Positions 47,670 through 56,058 are shown, counted from the first letter of the stretch. The stretch is 56,185 nucleotides of DNA from Deltaproteobacteria bacterium (GCA_021162935.1 JAGGXR010000133.1:1-56185), one strand, 5' to 3'. A program made the numbers and translations. Notes: generated by a model not told the origin, from the sequence alone.

Positions 47670-48788
47670 ATGACAACCCCATCCACACCTTCCCCTCGGA
47701 GGCACCAACAGGGCCGGATCCTGGTGGTCGATGATTCCAAGTCCCAGCGAGCGGTGGAAACCGAACTCCTCGAACGAAACGGCTATGAAGTCGAAGAGGC
47801 TGAAACGGGCAGCCAATGTCTGGCCAAAGTCGCATCGTTCCGTCCGGACCTGATCCTCGAGGACGTGATGCTGCCCGACGTGGACGGATTCCGACTCTGC
47901 CGAATCATCAAGTCGAACCCGAAGTTCTCCGAGATTCCCGTCATCTTCATCACCTCCTTGGACAAGCCGGACGACGTATTGAAAGGTTTTCAGGCCGGCG
48001 GGGCCGACTACGTGGCCAAACCATTCCACAACGAGGAATTCCTGGCACGCGTCCAGGCCCATCTCGACCTGGCCGTGCTGACGCGGGAGCGCATCGAACA
48101 GGCCGAACTCATGACCCAGACCCAGTCACGAATCCAGCGCACGGTCCTGGCCGAAGGCCTGGCCCACAACTTGAACAACCTCCTCGCCCCTTTGGTTGGA
48201 AATCTGAGCTGGCTCAGAAACGAAATCTCCGAAGCGAAGCATCGCGAAGCCATCGATGACATGCTCCAGATCGTGGAACGACTCAAACGCGTCGCCCAAG
48301 CCCTCACAGGAAACATGGAACGGACCATGCGACCCGATGCAACCCTGGGGTCTCTGATGGCCGCGGTCTGCAACGACATCGAACTCACCTTGAAGCCCGA
48401 CGTGCGGATCGAACAGCGCTTCGACGAAGAGGACCGGACCAACGTACCCAGCCCCCTTGGACCCACCCTGACAGCCATCCTGGTCAACGCGGTCGAAGCC
48501 GTGGAAACCAAGGGACGCATCACCGTCGAGGCAGCTCACGACGAAACGGGCCCAACCGGCGAAACAGTCGTGATCACGGTCACGGACACAGGACATGGCC
48601 TGGACGAAGAAACCGCCCAAAAAGCCTTCTTGCCCTTTTTCAGCACCAAAGACACGGTGGGGGCCGGCCTGGGTCTCCACCAGGCTCAGGTCGCCTTGGA
48701 GCGAGTCGGCGGTACCGTTCGTCTGGAGGGGAGTCCCGGCCAGGGAGCCGTCTGCACCATCGAACTGCCGATAAAACGAAACACGTGA
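47670..48788 (+). CDS. Receiver-histidine kinase hybrid (REC before kinase)
   Basis: 372 residues from ATG 47670 (AGGAG, spacing seven). The receiver comes first: VVDDS (Asp21, Asp22), phospho-acceptor Asp65 in LILEDVMLPD, Lys117 in VAKPF. The kinase core has a dimerisation helix with His166 in EGLAHNLNNLLAPLVG, an H-box close to that of NtrB/HEINN kinases, and an ATPase domain with TAILVNAVEAVE (N-box), DTGHGL and GAGLGLHQA. No sensor or membrane segment: soluble, controlled by phosphorylation of its own receiver. No partner regulator is adjacent. The next gene overlaps or follows within nine bases. Confidence 0.9.
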   Translation: MTTPSTPSPRRHQQGRILVVDDSKSQRAVETELLERNGYEVEEAETGSQCLAKVASFRPDLILEDVMLPDVDGFRLCRIIKSNPKFSEIPVIFITSLDKPDDVLKGFQAGGADYVAKPFHNEEFLARVQAHLDLAVLTRERIEQAELMTQTQSRIQRTVLAEGLAHNLNNLLAPLVGNLSWLRNEISEAKHREAIDDMLQIVERLKRVAQALTGNMERTMRPDATLGSLMAAVCNDIELTLKPDVRIEQRFDEEDRTNVPSPLGPTLTAILVNAVEAVETKGRITVEAAHDETGPTGETVVITVTDTGHGLDEETAQKAFLPFFSTKDTVGAGLGLHQAQVALERVGGTVRLEGSPGQGAVCTIELPIKRNT

Positions 48789-48796
48789 ACGGAGAA

Positions 48797-49375
48797 ATGA
48801 AGACCATGAAACTCCATAATGGATTTGTTGGACTGATGGTGGCGGCCGGCTTGGTATGGGGCGGCCAGGCCTTGGCAGGAGGCGTGCGCTTCGGCGTAAG
48901 CCTGTCTTACCTGACGAACGCACGACGCGCCCAGTATCGCATGCCCTATCGATACGGAGGGGTCCTCGTCTGGTCCGTGTCCCCAAGGGGCGCCGCGGCT
49001 CGCGCCGGAATCAAACCTGGCGATGTCCTGCTCCGACTGGACCGCATGTACGTCTACAAGCCGGCCGACGTCATCCGGATCGTGCAGGGCCATCGGCCAG
49101 GGGACCGCATGTTGGTCGACCTCTTCCGCATGGGCAAGTACCACTCCATCACGGTCGCCTTTGCAGGAAGGATCGCGGCGCCGCCGGCCCGCCAGGCGCC
49201 CGCGTACGCCACAGACCGTATCGGCGCGCTCCAACGTGTCATCGCCGAGCTGGCTCGTCAGGTCATGGAACTGCGCAAGGAGGTCGCCAGACTCCGTAAA
49301 CGCGTCAGACAACTCGAAGGTCAATCCTCGGCCCAGCCCGGCACAAACACCCCACCTCCCGTCCTGTCTCGATAG
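48797..49375 (+). CDS. Periplasmic PDZ-domain protein
   Basis: 192 residues from ATG 48797; GGAG is only two to three bases upstream, so ATG 48806 or GTG 48785 (which overlaps the kinase stop as GTGA) are alternatives. Signal peptide to about residue 28 (LVWGGQALAGG). PDZ domain: YGGVLVWSVSPRGAAARAGIKPGDVLLRLD, VYKPADVIRIVQGHRPGDRMLVDLFRMGK. Then a C-terminal coiled coil (ALQRVIAELARQVMELRKEVARLRKRVRQLEG), likely for oligomerisation. No protease domain, so probably a binding or scaffold protein. Its link with the kinase is by position only. Confidence 0.8.
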   Translation: MKTMKLHNGFVGLMVAAGLVWGGQALAGGVRFGVSLSYLTNARRAQYRMPYRYGGVLVWSVSPRGAAARAGIKPGDVLLRLDRMYVYKPADVIRIVQGHRPGDRMLVDLFRMGKYHSITVAFAGRIAAPPARQAPAYATDRIGALQRVIAELARQVMELRKEVARLRKRVRQLEGQSSAQPGTNTPPPVLSR

Positions 49376-49419: not shown

Positions 49420-51528
49420 CTAATCGATGGTGATGGCCAGACTGTAGGTCCCCGTGGCTCCGCTGTATCCGTAGATACGCAGGGTGTAGGTTCCCTCTTC
49501 GTCTGCGTGGACTGTTTCCACGTCGTTCGTGCCCTGGCTGATATCCACCTGATCGCCGCCGCGGAACAGAGCCATATCTAGGTCTCCCACGCTGTGATCG
49601 AACGTGATGGTGACCGTCATGCTCTGGCCCGTGGCCAACTGGACCTGATAGTAATCGTCGTTGTCCTTGCAGATCTGCAGGTCTGGATAGGTGCCTTCGG
49701 AAAGCGCCGTGGCCTGGTTGGGGTTGTCGTTGCTTTCATAGCCGTCGTCGGTGCAGGTGTCGCCATGACCGCCGCCCTGACTCGCCTCGCACCAGGGAAT
49801 CCATTCGTGCTCGACTTCGGAGTCGTCGGACACGTCCCTCGCCTGGCAGGGCTCGTCCTCGGACCAATCCTTCCACAAATGCCCCCGACCCGTCTGCTCG
49901 GCGAATTGCTTGAACAGGTCGTAGCCACCACCCACCGCCTTGAACACCGTGGCCTCGACGCACTGATCCTCTGCCTGCTGACGGTTGTAGTCCATGATGA
50001 CCTGGTACATGGCGGACGTGCTCGAATCCCAACAACAGGTCTTGGATGTCTCGTACTGGAGCTCTGCGAACACGTAGTCGTCCAGGATTCGATAGGTCCG
50101 ATCCGTCTGCGCCTTCGACATGCCGAACTTGTCCGCGTCCAAGTCGTACAGATCGGCAAACGCTTTCTCCCTCCTCGTTCTGGCGGCGCAGGAAGCCGGG
50201 TACTCGCGCAGATGGTTCCGAGCGTCTTCGATCCGCTGCAGCAAGGAGGCCCGCAGGTCTTCTGGGGACACTTCGCCAAGAAGCGTCCGAAATTCGGTGG
50301 GCCGCGTCTTGAGCCGTTCGTAGTCCGTATCGCAGATCCATGAAGCCTCGTCGCCGGCCATCCAGGTATTGGTCCACTTGCCCCCAATCTTTTTGGCCAC
50401 CCGCCAACGCTTCAGACCGCCACCAAGACGCACGTAGGCATCACCATCATAATTGGTGCCCTCGCCGCCCATTTCCTCAGTGGTGAAGTAGCTCTTCGAA
50501 GAAGCGCCATCTTCCCACTTTGGCTGCCGCCTGGGCATGGACCCGGACACGAGTTGGGCCTCGAGTCGCCCCTCGGAAAGGGGCGTCACTTGCTTGACCA
50601 CGAGGGTGTGACCGATACCGATCTTCTGCCACCGCTCCAGAAGGAGATCGCCTGCACGGATGGCTTCGGGCTTGAGATTGTACGTGTTGCGCGAACTCAC
50701 GAGATTGACGGACCCGAAATACGAAAGCAGGAGCCGCACGAAATGGCCCACCCGCTTGTTCAGATAAATCTCGTCGAAGTACGCTCCAGCCTTGGCCCCT
50801 TCGAAGATGAAGTCCATATCGTCACCGCCCCCGTATAGGCCGCGCTCCCGCAGTCTCGCATCCTGGGGCCAACCGTCACGCTGGATGTCGGCGGCGGTCA
50901 TATATGAATAGTCCTTGTACCAAAGCTTATACTTGGGCATGTCTTGGTACCGACCATTGCGCGTCCTACCACCAAAATGGCCGAAATAGACCCGGGTGCC
51001 GTGTCCATCGACCGAGGTGAGATAGAACGGGAGATGGTACCAAGCGGCAAAGGTCACGCGCAGAAACATGGCCAACTCGGCACATTCCAGCTTGGGCGCA
51101 GGCAGGGTCTTACCCCAGGGAGTCGTCAGGGTGAACGTGTCATACGTGTAGTAACCGCCCACCGAATCAATCTTCTCCATGGATTGGATCCACTTCGCGT
51201 ACTTCTCGTCCCAGTTCAACCCACTGTTGGCTGGCCAACCAATCCCAGCCTTCTTCGCCTCGGCGCTGTTGCGGTCCTCCCACTGGTTGCGGACCTCCCA
51301 GACCTGGGTGTCCGAGTCGTCCACGGACGTGGGCAAGGCACCAACCCCCGCGTTGTCCGCCTTACCCAGCGGCGCCGTGTCTTCGAGGGGTTCGACGATG
51401 CCATAATCGTCATCCTGGAGCGACGATTGATCGGAGCCGCAGGCGCCCAACAGCAGCGCACCTCCGACCGCCGCGACCATCCAGGGCCACCTTCTGCGCG
51501 AAACCGTCTCCATCAAAAACGTCTTCAT
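49420..51528 (-). CDS. Lipoprotein with papain-like fold hints and C-terminal PPC domain
   Basis: 702 residues. I use ATG 51528, ten bases after AGGAG; ATG 51537 is nearly on top of that site. Lipoprotein signal ends LLLGAC. Residues about 70-330 carry LECAELAMFLRV and AGDLLLERWQKIGIGHTLVV, which resemble the Cys and His motifs of NlpC/P60- or transglutaminase-like cysteine hydrolases; this is a hint, not proof. A charged, Cys-containing middle region follows. The last 100 residues are a PPC (bacterial pre-peptidase C-terminal) domain: DGYESNDNPNQATAL, DNDDYYQVQL, GDLDMALFRGG, TYTLRIYGYSGATGTYSLAI. It is convergent with the PDZ gene and probably surface-exposed. Confidence 0.7.
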   Translation of the reverse strand: MKTFLMETVSRRRWPWMVAAVGGALLLGACGSDQSSLQDDDYGIVEPLEDTAPLGKADNAGVGALPTSVDDSDTQVWEVRNQWEDRNSAEAKKAGIGWPANSGLNWDEKYAKWIQSMEKIDSVGGYYTYDTFTLTTPWGKTLPAPKLECAELAMFLRVTFAAWYHLPFYLTSVDGHGTRVYFGHFGGRTRNGRYQDMPKYKLWYKDYSYMTAADIQRDGWPQDARLRERGLYGGGDDMDFIFEGAKAGAYFDEIYLNKRVGHFVRLLLSYFGSVNLVSSRNTYNLKPEAIRAGDLLLERWQKIGIGHTLVVKQVTPLSEGRLEAQLVSGSMPRRQPKWEDGASSKSYFTTEEMGGEGTNYDGDAYVRLGGGLKRWRVAKKIGGKWTNTWMAGDEASWICDTDYERLKTRPTEFRTLLGEVSPEDLRASLLQRIEDARNHLREYPASCAARTRREKAFADLYDLDADKFGMSKAQTDRTYRILDDYVFAELQYETSKTCCWDSSTSAMYQVIMDYNRQQAEDQCVEATVFKAVGGGYDLFKQFAEQTGRGHLWKDWSEDEPCQARDVSDDSEVEHEWIPWCEASQGGGHGDTCTDDGYESNDNPNQATALSEGTYPDLQICKDNDDYYQVQLATGQSMTVTITFDHSVGDLDMALFRGGDQVDISQGTNDVETVHADEEGTYTLRIYGYSGATGTYSLAITID

Positions 51529-51656
51529 CTCTTCCATGCTCCTTGCCGGGGTACCGCCATCTGCTGACCAAACCATCGACCCCATCCAACCAGGACATCC
51601 AGGCAGCAAAACCCCACAGAACGAATCACACCCTGCAGGTCTGTGCACACCTCAAA

Positions 51657-51969: not shown

Positions 51970-54900
51970 ATGGCCGAATACAAAAAGATCCGACTCATTT
52001 CTTTGGCTCGTTGGACCAGCGTCGCGCTGCTCACGTGGCTGGCGGCAAATTGCAGCGGTTCAGGCTGTTCGAGTTGCTCATCGATGCACCCGATTCCGGG
52101 AGGCTTCCCGCTGAGCAAACGCATGGAAAATGGCATCCAGGTCCGAGTCACGAAAACCGGCGTCGCGTTCGTGGAGCAGCACGCCGACGACATCCTATCT
52201 GGACTCATGCCCAACGGGCTGGAATTCAACATCACGCCGACCTGTGACCAGGACGTGTCCGGCTTCGGCTCGTTCGATCTCTGCGGCCAGGGAGATGCCA
52301 CCCACTGCACCGCAGACGACCCACCCTGCAAGACGCACGTGGAACTCGAAGAACTCCACCTGGTCCCCACGGCCCCTGCGTCAGTGAACATCGACACAAG
52401 GGTCAACATCTGGACCTTGAGCAGTATGCAGCTCCATGGGGATAACTGGTACACGCCCGACTGCACCATCGACCTGGACACGAGGAACGGAAGCCACACC
52501 GACCTGCAGGTCGTGGCCACGTTGACGTTCAACCAGGATTCCCAGTCCAACAGGACCCACATGGACATCGCGTCGGTGACCATTCCCGACGGAGAACTCG
52601 ATGACGAGGATGTCTCGATTGGCGGCGGCCTGGCCTGTGACACGGTGGAGCTGTTCTTCAAGAGCTTCATCGTGGACGAGGTGCGCCAGAAAATCGCCGA
52701 CCAAATCGCTCCCATGCTCAACAGCACCTGCATCACCTGCGACGCCACCGACCCACAATGTCCCCAACTGTCGTCCTGCAAAGAGGTCTTCGTGGACGAC
52801 ACGCCGGACGCCACGCCATACCACTGGTGCATGGAAAAAAGCGAAAACGGCTGCGTCCAGGGGCTCGGCATGGAAGGGCGCATGGACGTCGGATCCCTTC
52901 TGTCGTCCCTGTCACCGCCCTCCGAAGCGGATCTGGACATCGAGGCCTGGGCGGGCGGCTACACCGAGGCCATCGCAGAAGGCCTGTCCCAGGGCCTGTT
53001 CGCCGGCGGTCTGCCCTACCCGGAACACGCGAGCTGCGTGCCGCCCCGCGATCCACCACCCTATGCCCAGGTGCCACGCTCCCAAGTCTTCGACACGAAC
53101 CTGCGCCCCACGGACAACCAGCCATATCAGGTCGGAGTCGGCATCCACCAATCCTTCCTGGACGCCGTCGGGTACGCCCTCTACGACTCGGGCGGGCTCT
53201 GTCTGGAAATGGGCCCACGACAAAGTACCTTCTTGACCATGGGCGCCATCGGGGTGCTCATCGACTCACTCAACGATCTCGTCCACGACGGCGACCCAGG
53301 TCTCGTACTCGCCATCAGGCCGCAGTATGCGCCCACGTTCGAACTGGGTGCCGGAACCAGCGACGGTCAAGGCAACATCGACGACCCCCTCATCACGGTC
53401 CACGCCAAAGATTTTGCCTTCGACTTCTACGGATTCGTGGACTACCGATTCGTCCGACTGTTCCGGGTGCTCACGGACATGGCGCTGCCCATCAACCTCG
53501 ACGTGGACGACCAAAATCGTCTCATCATGGTCCTCGGCTCCCTCAAGGACGCGTTCGAGAACATCCGCGTGGAGCACAGCGAGTTGCTTGCCGAGAGCCA
53601 CGATGAAATCGCGGCCGTATTTCCGGTCCTGGTGGACAGCGCAGGTGGATTCCTGGGCAACCTGGCGCCCATCGCCCTGCCCGACATGTTCGGATTCAAG
53701 CTCCTGTTGGACCAGGGATCCATCACCTCGGTGGACGGACAGACCTTCCTGGCGATCTTCGCCAACCTCGCGTACGTGGGCACCGCGCCTTCGCCACAAC
53801 GGGCCCAGACCCGCATCCTGACCACCAAACTGGAGCTCCCGGACAGGATGCGCCCGGTCAGTCTCCAAGACGCGATCTCCAACGGACCGGTGGTCCGGAT
53901 CGACCTGGATCCCACGTCTTCGGGCGGGGACGCTCGCCTGGAATGGTCCTATCGACTCGACGACGGGCCCTGGTCGCCCTACCAACGTTCTGCGCACCTC
54001 GTGGTGCGTCGTCCTGCCCTGTGGGTCCAGGGCCACCACCGCATCCAGGTCCGTGCCAGGATGCAGGGCCGTCCGGCGACCACCGACGACAGCCCAACCA
54101 CGACCGACGTGGTCGTGGATATGGTGCCTCCTTCTTTGAGCTGGCACCAGGACGGCCACCGCGTGATCCTCCAGGGCGAAGACGCCATATCCCCACCGCA
54201 GACCCTGCGCTACAGCCACATCCTTCCGGACGGAACCTGGTCTGCCTGGACCAAGGACCCGACCCTGCCCGAAACCGATCGCACCAAGCCCTGGCGGGTC
54301 CGCGTCCGGGACGAGGCGGGAAACGTGACCGAATCATCCATCGCAGGCCTGTACGGTCGCGTCCAGCCCAGAACTTCGGGAACGGGTGCCTGCGGCTGCC
54401 ACAGCCTGTCGGGCAATCGCCAAATCCCAGGCCCCCTGGCCCTCGTGCTGCTCCTGTTGGCCGCCCTGATCTCAGCCCGCCGCCGTGCCAAGAACAAACG
54501 CCGCCCTTTTTCATCGGGTGGTCCTGCCGGCCGAGCCCTGTCGGTCCTGCTCCTCGGCCTCGCCCTGGCTGGAACGAATCAGGGCTGCGGCGGCCACTCG
54601 TCCGGAGGCAACAACTGCAACGTCACAGACATCCCGCTCGTCTGTAAGGATCCAGTGCCCCAATGCGGCCCGGGCATGGAACCTGCCGCCTCCGAACCGT
54701 TGCGCCTGGATCCGAAGACCTGCGAGCCCATCCCGGTGGACTGTCATTGTGCGGTGCAGGTGGGCGACCACGGCCGCTTCCTGAGCACCGCAGCACAAGA
54801 GGGCACCCTCATGGTGGCCTGCTACAGCGACCGATGGGGCGACCTAAACGTGGTGACCGTAGACAAGCAGGGCCAAAGCACCACCGAGGCCGTCGACGGC

Positions 54901-56058
54901 GTCCCGTGGGACGATCCCTCGGCGGACGACCAGGCGGGATTCCGAAAGGGCATCATGCAAAAAGGACCCAACGTCGGCCAGTTCACCGACATCGCCATCG
55001 GCTCCGACCATCTGGCCCGCATCAGTTACGTGGACATGGACAGCGGGGGCCTCAAGTATGCCGAAGGCAACAAAGGATCCTGGACGTCACACGAAGTCGT
55101 GACGCCCGCCACGGACCAGGAACGGATCTGGTACACGACCATCGCACTCGATCACGACGACACCCCGGCCATCCTGTTCATGGAAAACGGCATCGTGGAC
55201 CCAACCGATCCAAACGCCTTCATCTCGCAACTCAAAATGGCCCAGGCCGCCTCTTCCCACCCCTCGTCGCCCACCGACTGGACCATTACGGTGGTCGATC
55301 AGACTCCCATTCCCTGCACGAACCTGTGTGCCTCCGACAGGGTCTGTGACGCCACTGAATGGCACTGCGTCGCCACGGACGACACCTGTGACGCCACCTG
55401 TCTACCGACCCAAGCCTGCGTGGCAGGAACCTGCACCGACGTCTTGGCCGACCAGGAATGGCTCGACCATCCAGAAGGCATCGGCCTGTATGTCTCCACC
55501 GGTCGCCTGAGCGACGGCCGACTCGTGGCCGCCTACCACGATCGGACCGCGGGCACCGCCAACGTGGCCCTCTACGACACGGGCACCTGGACCACCCAAG
55601 TCGTAGACGGCGACGCCTTCACCGACCGAGGGCTCTTCATCTCCATGGCCATCGGCAGCGACGACCACATCCACCTCGCCTATCACGACGCCGTGGCCGA
55701 CTCGCTCCTGTACCAGGTCCTCGACCCTGGTCTGAACCAACTCACCGCAGAAACGGTCGACGACGGCCTCCGCGAAGACGGCCAGCACGTCGTGGGCCTG
55801 GATACCAAAATCGTGCTCGACGACTCGGGCGCGGTCCATATCTTTTACCAGGACGGCACCACCGCCGACCTCATCGAGGCCTCCAGGCAGACAGACGGCC
55901 AATGGACCCTGCCGCCCGTCCAACAAGGCGACCCCGGGTTCGGATTTTTCACGGACCTGACTCGGGACAGCGATGGAATCTGGTGGGGCGCCCAATACGT
56001 GTACGACCGCACGAGCACGCCGGTCGGTTCCCTGCACATCTGGAAACCCACCTTGTAG
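51970..56058 (+). CDS. Two-in-one surface protein with internal MYXO-CTERM-like segment
   Basis: 1,362 residues from ATG 51970. The N-terminal signal (SLARWTSVALLTWLAAN) runs into a Cys-rich start (CSGSGCSSCSS); the lipobox is imperfect. Residues about 45-790 form a beta-rich ectodomain with few known motifs. At 806-845 there is a MYXO-CTERM-like tail: ACGCHS (Cys808, Cys810), a hydrophobic run (LALVLLLLAALI) and SARRRAKNKRR. Normally such a tail ends the protein. Here the frame continues through a second export-like segment (RALSVLLLGLALAGTNQGCGG, Cys873) into about 490 residues of propeller-like repeats (VVDGDAFTDRG, LVAAYHDRTAGTANVALYD, IHLAYHDAVADSLLYQ) interrupted by a Cys-rich module (CASDRVCDATEWHC). 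No internal Met start is visible at the junction. The stop is followed at once by a tandem array. Confidence 0.8.
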   Translation: MAEYKKIRLISLARWTSVALLTWLAANCSGSGCSSCSSMHPIPGGFPLSKRMENGIQVRVTKTGVAFVEQHADDILSGLMPNGLEFNITPTCDQDVSGFGSFDLCGQGDATHCTADDPPCKTHVELEELHLVPTAPASVNIDTRVNIWTLSSMQLHGDNWYTPDCTIDLDTRNGSHTDLQVVATLTFNQDSQSNRTHMDIASVTIPDGELDDEDVSIGGGLACDTVELFFKSFIVDEVRQKIADQIAPMLNSTCITCDATDPQCPQLSSCKEVFVDDTPDATPYHWCMEKSENGCVQGLGMEGRMDVGSLLSSLSPPSEADLDIEAWAGGYTEAIAEGLSQGLFAGGLPYPEHASCVPPRDPPPYAQVPRSQVFDTNLRPTDNQPYQVGVGIHQSFLDAVGYALYDSGGLCLEMGPRQSTFLTMGAIGVLIDSLNDLVHDGDPGLVLAIRPQYAPTFELGAGTSDGQGNIDDPLITVHAKDFAFDFYGFVDYRFVRLFRVLTDMALPINLDVDDQNRLIMVLGSLKDAFENIRVEHSELLAESHDEIAAVFPVLVDSAGGFLGNLAPIALPDMFGFKLLLDQGSITSVDGQTFLAIFANLAYVGTAPSPQRAQTRILTTKLELPDRMRPVSLQDAISNGPVVRIDLDPTSSGGDARLEWSYRLDDGPWSPYQRSAHLVVRRPALWVQGHHRIQVRARMQGRPATTDDSPTTTDVVVDMVPPSLSWHQDGHRVILQGEDAISPPQTLRYSHILPDGTWSAWTKDPTLPETDRTKPWRVRVRDEAGNVTESSIAGLYGRVQPRTSGTGACGCHSLSGNRQIPGPLALVLLLLAALISARRRAKNKRRPFSSGGPAGRALSVLLLGLALAGTNQGCGGHSSGGNNCNVTDIPLVCKDPVPQCGPGMEPAASEPLRLDPKTCEPIPVDCHCAVQVGDHGRFLSTAAQEGTLMVACYSDRWGDLNVVTVDKQGQSTTEAVDGVPWDDPSADDQAGFRKGIMQKGPNVGQFTDIAIGSDHLARISYVDMDSGGLKYAEGNKGSWTSHEVVTPATDQERIWYTTIALDHDDTPAILFMENGIVDPTDPNAFISQLKMAQAASSHPSSPTDWTITVVDQTPIPCTNLCASDRVCDATEWHCVATDDTCDATCLPTQACVAGTCTDVLADQEWLDHPEGIGLYVSTGRLSDGRLVAAYHDRTAGTANVALYDTGTWTTQVVDGDAFTDRGLFISMAIGSDDHIHLAYHDAVADSLLYQVLDPGLNQLTAETVDDGLREDGQHVVGLDTKIVLDDSGAVHIFYQDGTTADLIEASRQTDGQWTLPPVQQGDPGFGFFTDLTRDSDGIWWGAQYVYDRTSTPVGSLHIWKPTL

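Follow-up and report, generated by a model that had tools for sequence, protein, structure and literature searches.

An internal MYXO-CTERM tail running into a lipoprotein signal suggests a polyprotein of two surface lipoproteins in a deltaproteobacterium

Why would a protein carry a C-terminal sorting tail in its middle? The question is raised by a gene of a Deltaproteobacteria bacterium (GCA_021162935.1) that lies in a window of 56,185 nucleotides, by which we mean the whole stretch of DNA analysed (JAGGXR010000133.1). A first-pass annotation of the window had described a complete sorting tail at residues 806-845 of the predicted product, beyond which the same frame continues with another export signal and another ectodomain, and had offered two readings: a polyprotein that is cut into two surface proteins, or a pair of genes joined when a stop codon was lost. 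Bacterial cellular polyproteins are rare. Judged from sequence comparison, the gene quite probably encodes a polyprotein of two surface lipoproteins linked by a membrane hairpin.

Reading frame and internal sorting tail

The gene and the features of its export and sorting signals are as follows.

51970-56058, plus strand: whole gene, ATG to stop, single frame of 1362 residues
51970-52053, plus strand: N-terminal export signal, residues 1-28, ending at Cys28 (LAANC at the lipobox position, Asn at -1)
54385-54486, plus strand: internal MYXO-CTERM tail with Cys808-Gly-Cys810, TM1 (about residues 822-836) and the start of the Arg cluster (TIGR03901)
54478-54534, plus strand: Arg/Lys loop, residues 837-855, predicted to be cytoplasmic (codon reading, family scan)
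54535-54588, plus strand: TM2 (residues 856-868) and Cys873 at the lipobox position, together a predicted internal type II signal peptide

The frame runs without a stop across residues 806-873, which hold Cys-Gly-Cys, TM1, the Arg/Lys loop, TM2 and Cys873, and the middle of the protein reads ...GTGACGCHSLSGNRQIPGPLALVLLLLAALISARRRAKNKRRPFSSGGPAGRALSVLLLGLALAGTNQGCGG.... Residues 806-845 are GACGCHSLSGNRQIPGPLALVLLLLAALISARRRAKNKRR, and beyond residue 845 the frame runs on via PFSSGGPAGRALSVLLLGLALAGTNQGCGG. Both the sorting-tail layout and the continuation past it into a second hydrophobic segment and ectodomain, as first described, were thereby confirmed. The signature motif C808-G-C810 is present, with Cys kept in all aligned junctions, and the Arg cluster RRRAKNKRR (837-845) follows directly on TM1. 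The tail scores 20.0 bits with TIGR03901, the NCBI MYXO-CTERM model, just equal to its curated cut-off of 20 bits; we counted this against the polyprotein reading, as we did the score of the tail in a paralog from the same genome (18.1 bits, under the cut-off). The tail is not C-terminal, 523 residues following residue 839, and of the 49 further tails that pass the cut-off in this genome, 48 end no more than 18 residues before the stop.

At the N-terminus, the lipobox A-A-N-C is atypical and was likewise counted against the polyprotein reading; most relatives have a standard lipobox at this position, for example LLWSAC, FIVAC or GLAAC. The residue before the lipobox Cys, usually G, A or S, is often N or H in the order to which the window belongs (LAANC, LSHC, LAHC, ATNC, GTNC; the window at 51970-52053 and the loci L007 and L089), perhaps reflecting a relaxed LspA. 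Upstream of the gene, 48785-49375 encodes a small exported protein that combines a PDZ domain with a SlyX-like coiled coil, and 49420-51648 (minus strand) a divergent neighbour of 742 residues with a lipoprotein-like start and a C-terminal PPC domain match under its cut-off.

Predicted folds of the two halves

Scans of the window protein against Pfam and NCBIfam gave nothing above cut-off, and the two halves were characterized by structure prediction.

52114-53787, plus strand: predicted double-barrel TULIP (BPI/CETP/LBP-like) lipid-binding fold, residues about 49-606 (AlphaFold2, Foldseek, VIA-align)
53797-54360, plus strand: two predicted FN3-like domains, residues about 610-797 (AlphaFold2; Z about 8.4-9.7 to FN3 domains)
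54736-56055, plus strand: predicted beta-propeller ectodomain, residues 923-1362 (AlphaFold2, pLDDT 85.8)

The AlphaFold2 model of the first half is of medium confidence (pLDDT 69). It matched BPI (1ewf) in Foldseek with an E value of 7.4e-19 and CETP (2obd_A) in VIA-align with Z 15.7, 430 aligned residues and an rmsd of 4.2; in the comparison with BPI, CETP and LBP, Z values of 15.7 and 15.6 over about 430 residues covered the whole double barrel. The model places the first half in the BPI-type double-barrel TULIP fold, with putative lipid binding or transfer. This bacterial TULIP family without a Pfam match is apparently widespread in the class. DUF4403 is a bacterial TULIP family with a full-length BPI-like double barrel (PMC6791001) and in this respect resembles the first half; the window protein differs in adding FN3-like domains and a sorting tail, and neither it nor any scanned relative matched DUF4403 in Pfam. 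The second-half model, which holds an inserted Cys-rich loop at about residues 1116-1155, is closest to the propeller of CylK (Z 33.7) and to PLL-type fucose-binding lectins (Z about 30), a predicted likeness that shows kinship of fold and is not evidence of sugar binding.

The hairpin and the second export signal

Cysteines lie at both ends of the hairpin, C808/C810 and C873, and Cys873 is invariant in an alignment of 15 members (A1). The order Cys motif, TM1, Arg cluster, TM2, lipobox Cys is found in 46 family members from both deep clades, sequence identity among them being low and the junction letters between the conserved elements diverging freely. The two hydrophobic cores are separated by as few as 3 residues (RRR) and by a median near 12. 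The second half of the protein has a positive n-region, a hydrophobic stretch and a Cys, as in a type II signal peptide, and this signal is internal; it is N-terminal only in natural splits and in a copy of the second half alone.

The end of the second signal had been described as AxA or lipobox-like. G, A or S precedes the first Cys after TM2 in 44 of the 46 members, compared with 356 of 1029 other cysteines of the same proteins, an enrichment whose P value is inflated and only indicative because the members are related. The signal is therefore better read as a lipobox, with a type II peptidase as its predicted partner, and the relatives speak against the AxA type. The window's own second lipobox, N-Q-G-C, is weak with an atypical -3 residue, which was counted against the polyprotein reading.

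These features bear on whether the hairpin is cut at all. Two hydrophobic segments and a positive loop suffice for a good hairpin, and the chain might stay uncut, the hairpin being a simple two-pass anchor with both ectodomains attached to the same molecule. Such an anchor could do without cysteines at its ends, yet Cys motifs flank the hairpin throughout; the preference for G, A or S before the second Cys and the complete, separate signals borne by naturally split genes and single halves also speak against it. We consider an uncut chain quite unlikely.

The second half might instead be made, additionally or solely, from an internal start codon, and ATG or GTG does occur near TM2 in some relatives. 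Codon reading found no ATG, GTG or TTG in the Arg/Lys loop and TM2 of the window, and none occurs from the end of TM1 to the start of TM2 in the window and 12 other members, so the loop offers no usual start for the second half in these genes. A scan of the junctions gave no Shine-Dalgarno match above 4/6. Internal initiation is thus very improbable.

Relatives, natural splits and age of the fusion

Whether relatives carry one gene or two was the comparison proposed in the first-pass annotation, and most were found to carry one continuous gene. Homologues are present in 42 of the 59 related genomes (31 of 44 genera), mostly as one frame of 1200-1460 residues through the junction; the named matches are assemblies of uncultured Myxococcota, Myxococcales and Kofleriaceae. 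The same genome encodes a paralog (C76) with an unbroken frame of 1376 residues and the same hairpin, the matched stretches being about 33% identical. Of the 62 N-half sequences placed in a tree, 54 continue into the second half (most of them traced through the junction, and the paralog included), 2 are split, 3 are N-only and 3 are cut by a contig end. One relative counted among the 54 (L054, G057:C50) is fused through the junction and shifts frame some tens of residues after it, by sequencing error or decay.

The fused state is found in both deepest clades, and the split sequences adjoin fused sisters; the fusion is therefore most simply ancestral, on a tree whose root is a midpoint only. 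Nothing within the window favours an error of assembly or sequencing, or a fusion that arose locally and recently through a lost stop, and among relatives only the shifted frame of L054 points that way. The continuous frames of the paralog and of most relatives across the class rule such explanations out, further internal tails occur in single-contig genomes, and we take their probability to be negligible. The earlier suggestion that a lost stop codon had joined two genes, understood as a local accident, was accordingly dropped, as relatives and paralog show the fusion to be old.

Two relatives depart from this layout: their halves are encoded by separate, overlapping genes, and the break falls precisely at the junction. 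The first gene of one (L061, genome G049) ends soon past the tail and shares an ATGA overlap with the second, which has a strong Shine-Dalgarno sequence and the lipoprotein signal MIARAVLAGAPLVLVALLATGC. The overlap in the other (L058, G024) is TGATG, and its second gene begins MNARTCLVGALALTLAGVANPGC, so that both second genes open with a lipoprotein signal peptide. A C-only copy (L057, G037) encodes just the second half, which starts with a lipoprotein signal, MRSPRRLLSSSLVGLFVGLIAAC, and the three N-only copies terminate at the Arg cluster. Either half can thus be a separate exported protein, and these splits and single halves break at the hairpin site.

Recurrence in unrelated genes

Tails ranked by TIGR03901 were read to the stop codon in five genomes, taking all 50 over the cut-off from this genome and the best 30 each from G138, G128, G104 and G118. 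Internal tails made up 11 of these 170 top-scoring tails, and 10 of the 11 lead straight into a hydrophobic stretch (TM2) and a lipobox; the eleventh (L241) resembles read-through of non-coding sequence. The other internal tail among the 50 of this genome, in a third gene with this layout, at C44:35320-35418 (L142 3284-9241, reverse complement coordinates), reads KRRKRLVAAVATVFILGGC with the lipobox ILGGC and belongs to a 1986-residue MopE-repeat/DUF4114 protein unrelated to that of the window.

A junction profile run over 144 genomes of the class found many further in-frame hairpins. The profile is biased toward lipobox endings by construction; its scan therefore gives breadth and not a rate, and we based the lipoprotein rule on the TIGR03901-ranked sets instead. 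Forty hairpin proteins were fetched and fell into 19 similarity clusters, the window's family being one, which leaves the hairpin in about 18 others. First halves of the other hairpin proteins include amidases, trypsins, subtilisin, SpoIID and DUF2330, and their second halves GDSL lipase, PQQ, lamin-tail, FGE-sulfatase and Amidase_2 domains. In one unrelated class member (L198) the MYXO-CTERM tail is followed by an apparent type I signal (ATASA); a lipobox is thus not the only kind of second signal.

Recurrence of the layout across unrelated genes points to routine synthesis of such pairs as a single chain that is later cut. We lean toward a class-wide polyprotein device in which a MYXO-CTERM tail runs into a lipoprotein signal, with a shared Arg cluster, two lipid-anchoring cysteines on either side of the hairpin and two distinct membrane proteases that separate the halves.

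How the chain is processed and why the genes are fused are separate matters. On the latter, fusion may bring no benefit: stop loss would be neutral because both halves are processed anyway, and its reversal would take a new stop codon together with a start codon and a ribosome site. Recurrence in many unrelated gene pairs agrees with this, as do the two splits and one N-only clade nested within fused clades; against it, the fused state has been kept across two deep clades though single-base changes could give a stop in the loop. Neutral fixation, the halves being separated by processing, is a fair account of why the fusions exist, and we give the absence of any benefit somewhat less than an even chance.

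Proposed processing

The genome encodes a MrtX homologue with the motifs EEIFFR, GH and HASSN (EExxxR, GH, HxxxN), two LspA genes and the type II secretion (T2SS) protein GspD. The MrtX homologue scores 126 bits, where the NCBIfam cut-off is 180 (NF040593), and we counted this against the polyprotein reading; we also know of no case in which MrtX cuts a substrate with about 500 residues past the tail, which was counted in the same way. MrtX cleaves MYXO-CTERM tails in Myxococcus xanthus and E. coli, the tail cysteines being required, and Lgt has been proposed to lipidate the MYXO-CTERM cysteine (PMC11980579). Internal MYXO-CTERM tags have been proposed to be functional in the case of MXAN_5598 (PMC11980579).

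Taking the gene as a polyprotein, we infer its topology, lipidation, both cleavages and the surface display of both halves as follows. The N-terminal signal would send the BPI-like first half into the Sec export route, TM1 in the sorting tail would act as a stop-transfer segment, and the Arg/Lys loop would remain cytoplasmic. TM2 would then resume export, placing both halves outside the inner membrane, a hairpin arrangement already put forward in the first-pass annotation and supported here by inference. The Arg cluster would have a double role, closing the sorting tail and serving the second signal peptide as its positive n-region. A MrtX-type myxosortase would cut at the Cys motif to free the first half. 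Lgt and LspA would lipidate and cleave at Cys873, so that the second half becomes an ordinary lipoprotein and the hairpin stays behind. The tail is probably cut by the myxosortase and the lipoprotein signal by LspA. In the original proposal of cutting by a rhombosortase or myxosortase and by signal peptidase, the myxosortase and signal peptidase are favoured by the MrtX homologue, LspA, GspD, the splits and the recurrence. Rhombosortase (GlyGly-CTERM) was rejected, the best match reaching 39.9 bits against a cut-off of 84 and such matches occurring in 14 of 14 control genomes.

Only one site might be used, either LspA at Cys873 with the MYXO-CTERM tail anchoring the first half, or MrtX alone. 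In M. xanthus, a MYXO-CTERM protein that has not been cleaved is still found in part at the surface (PMC11980579), and the long C-terminal extension might block MrtX before LspA acts. Both signals are conserved together, which argues against use of a single site, and we think it unlikely.

Comparison with known systems

FbcH of Bradyrhizobium is a cytochrome b/c1 polyprotein whose internal signal peptide is cut by signal peptidase; unlike the window gene, it lacks a sorting tail, depends on a type I peptidase and yields respiratory proteins. A literature search on FbcH and bacterial polyproteins with internal signal peptides returned nothing pertinent.

If the polyprotein reading holds, the internal MYXO-CTERM tail would be a recurrent means of pairing surface proteins. 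In the hairpins a single substrate carries a MYXO-CTERM Cys next to a lipobox Cys, which bears on the question of the lipidating enzyme, and gene callers and topology predictors will mistake such genes for two-pass membrane proteins.

The closest known system is MYXO-CTERM/myxosortase (TIGR03901, MrtX NF040593; PMC11980579), which is alike in Cys motif, TM helix and Arg cluster and of which this genome also has the MrtX homologue and GspD. The window's tail differs from the standard one in being internal, with a lipoprotein signal and second ectodomain directly after it. TraA-TraB of M. xanthus, where the MYXO-CTERM gene overlaps the next gene (PMC11980579), resembles the splits L058 and L061 and differs from the window gene in being two overlapping genes and not one frame. 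MXAN_5598 of M. xanthus, a suspected gene fusion, likewise has an internal MYXO-CTERM tail and was proposed to be processed; its second part is an outer-membrane beta-barrel/OmpA protein, and it was reported as an atypical single case, without a lipoprotein rule or conservation (PMC11980579). One internal MYXO-CTERM tail, thought rare, is thus already known; what appears new is the rule that a lipoprotein signal follows the tail, together with the age of this arrangement in one family, the unrelated genes in which it recurs and the relatives with separate halves.
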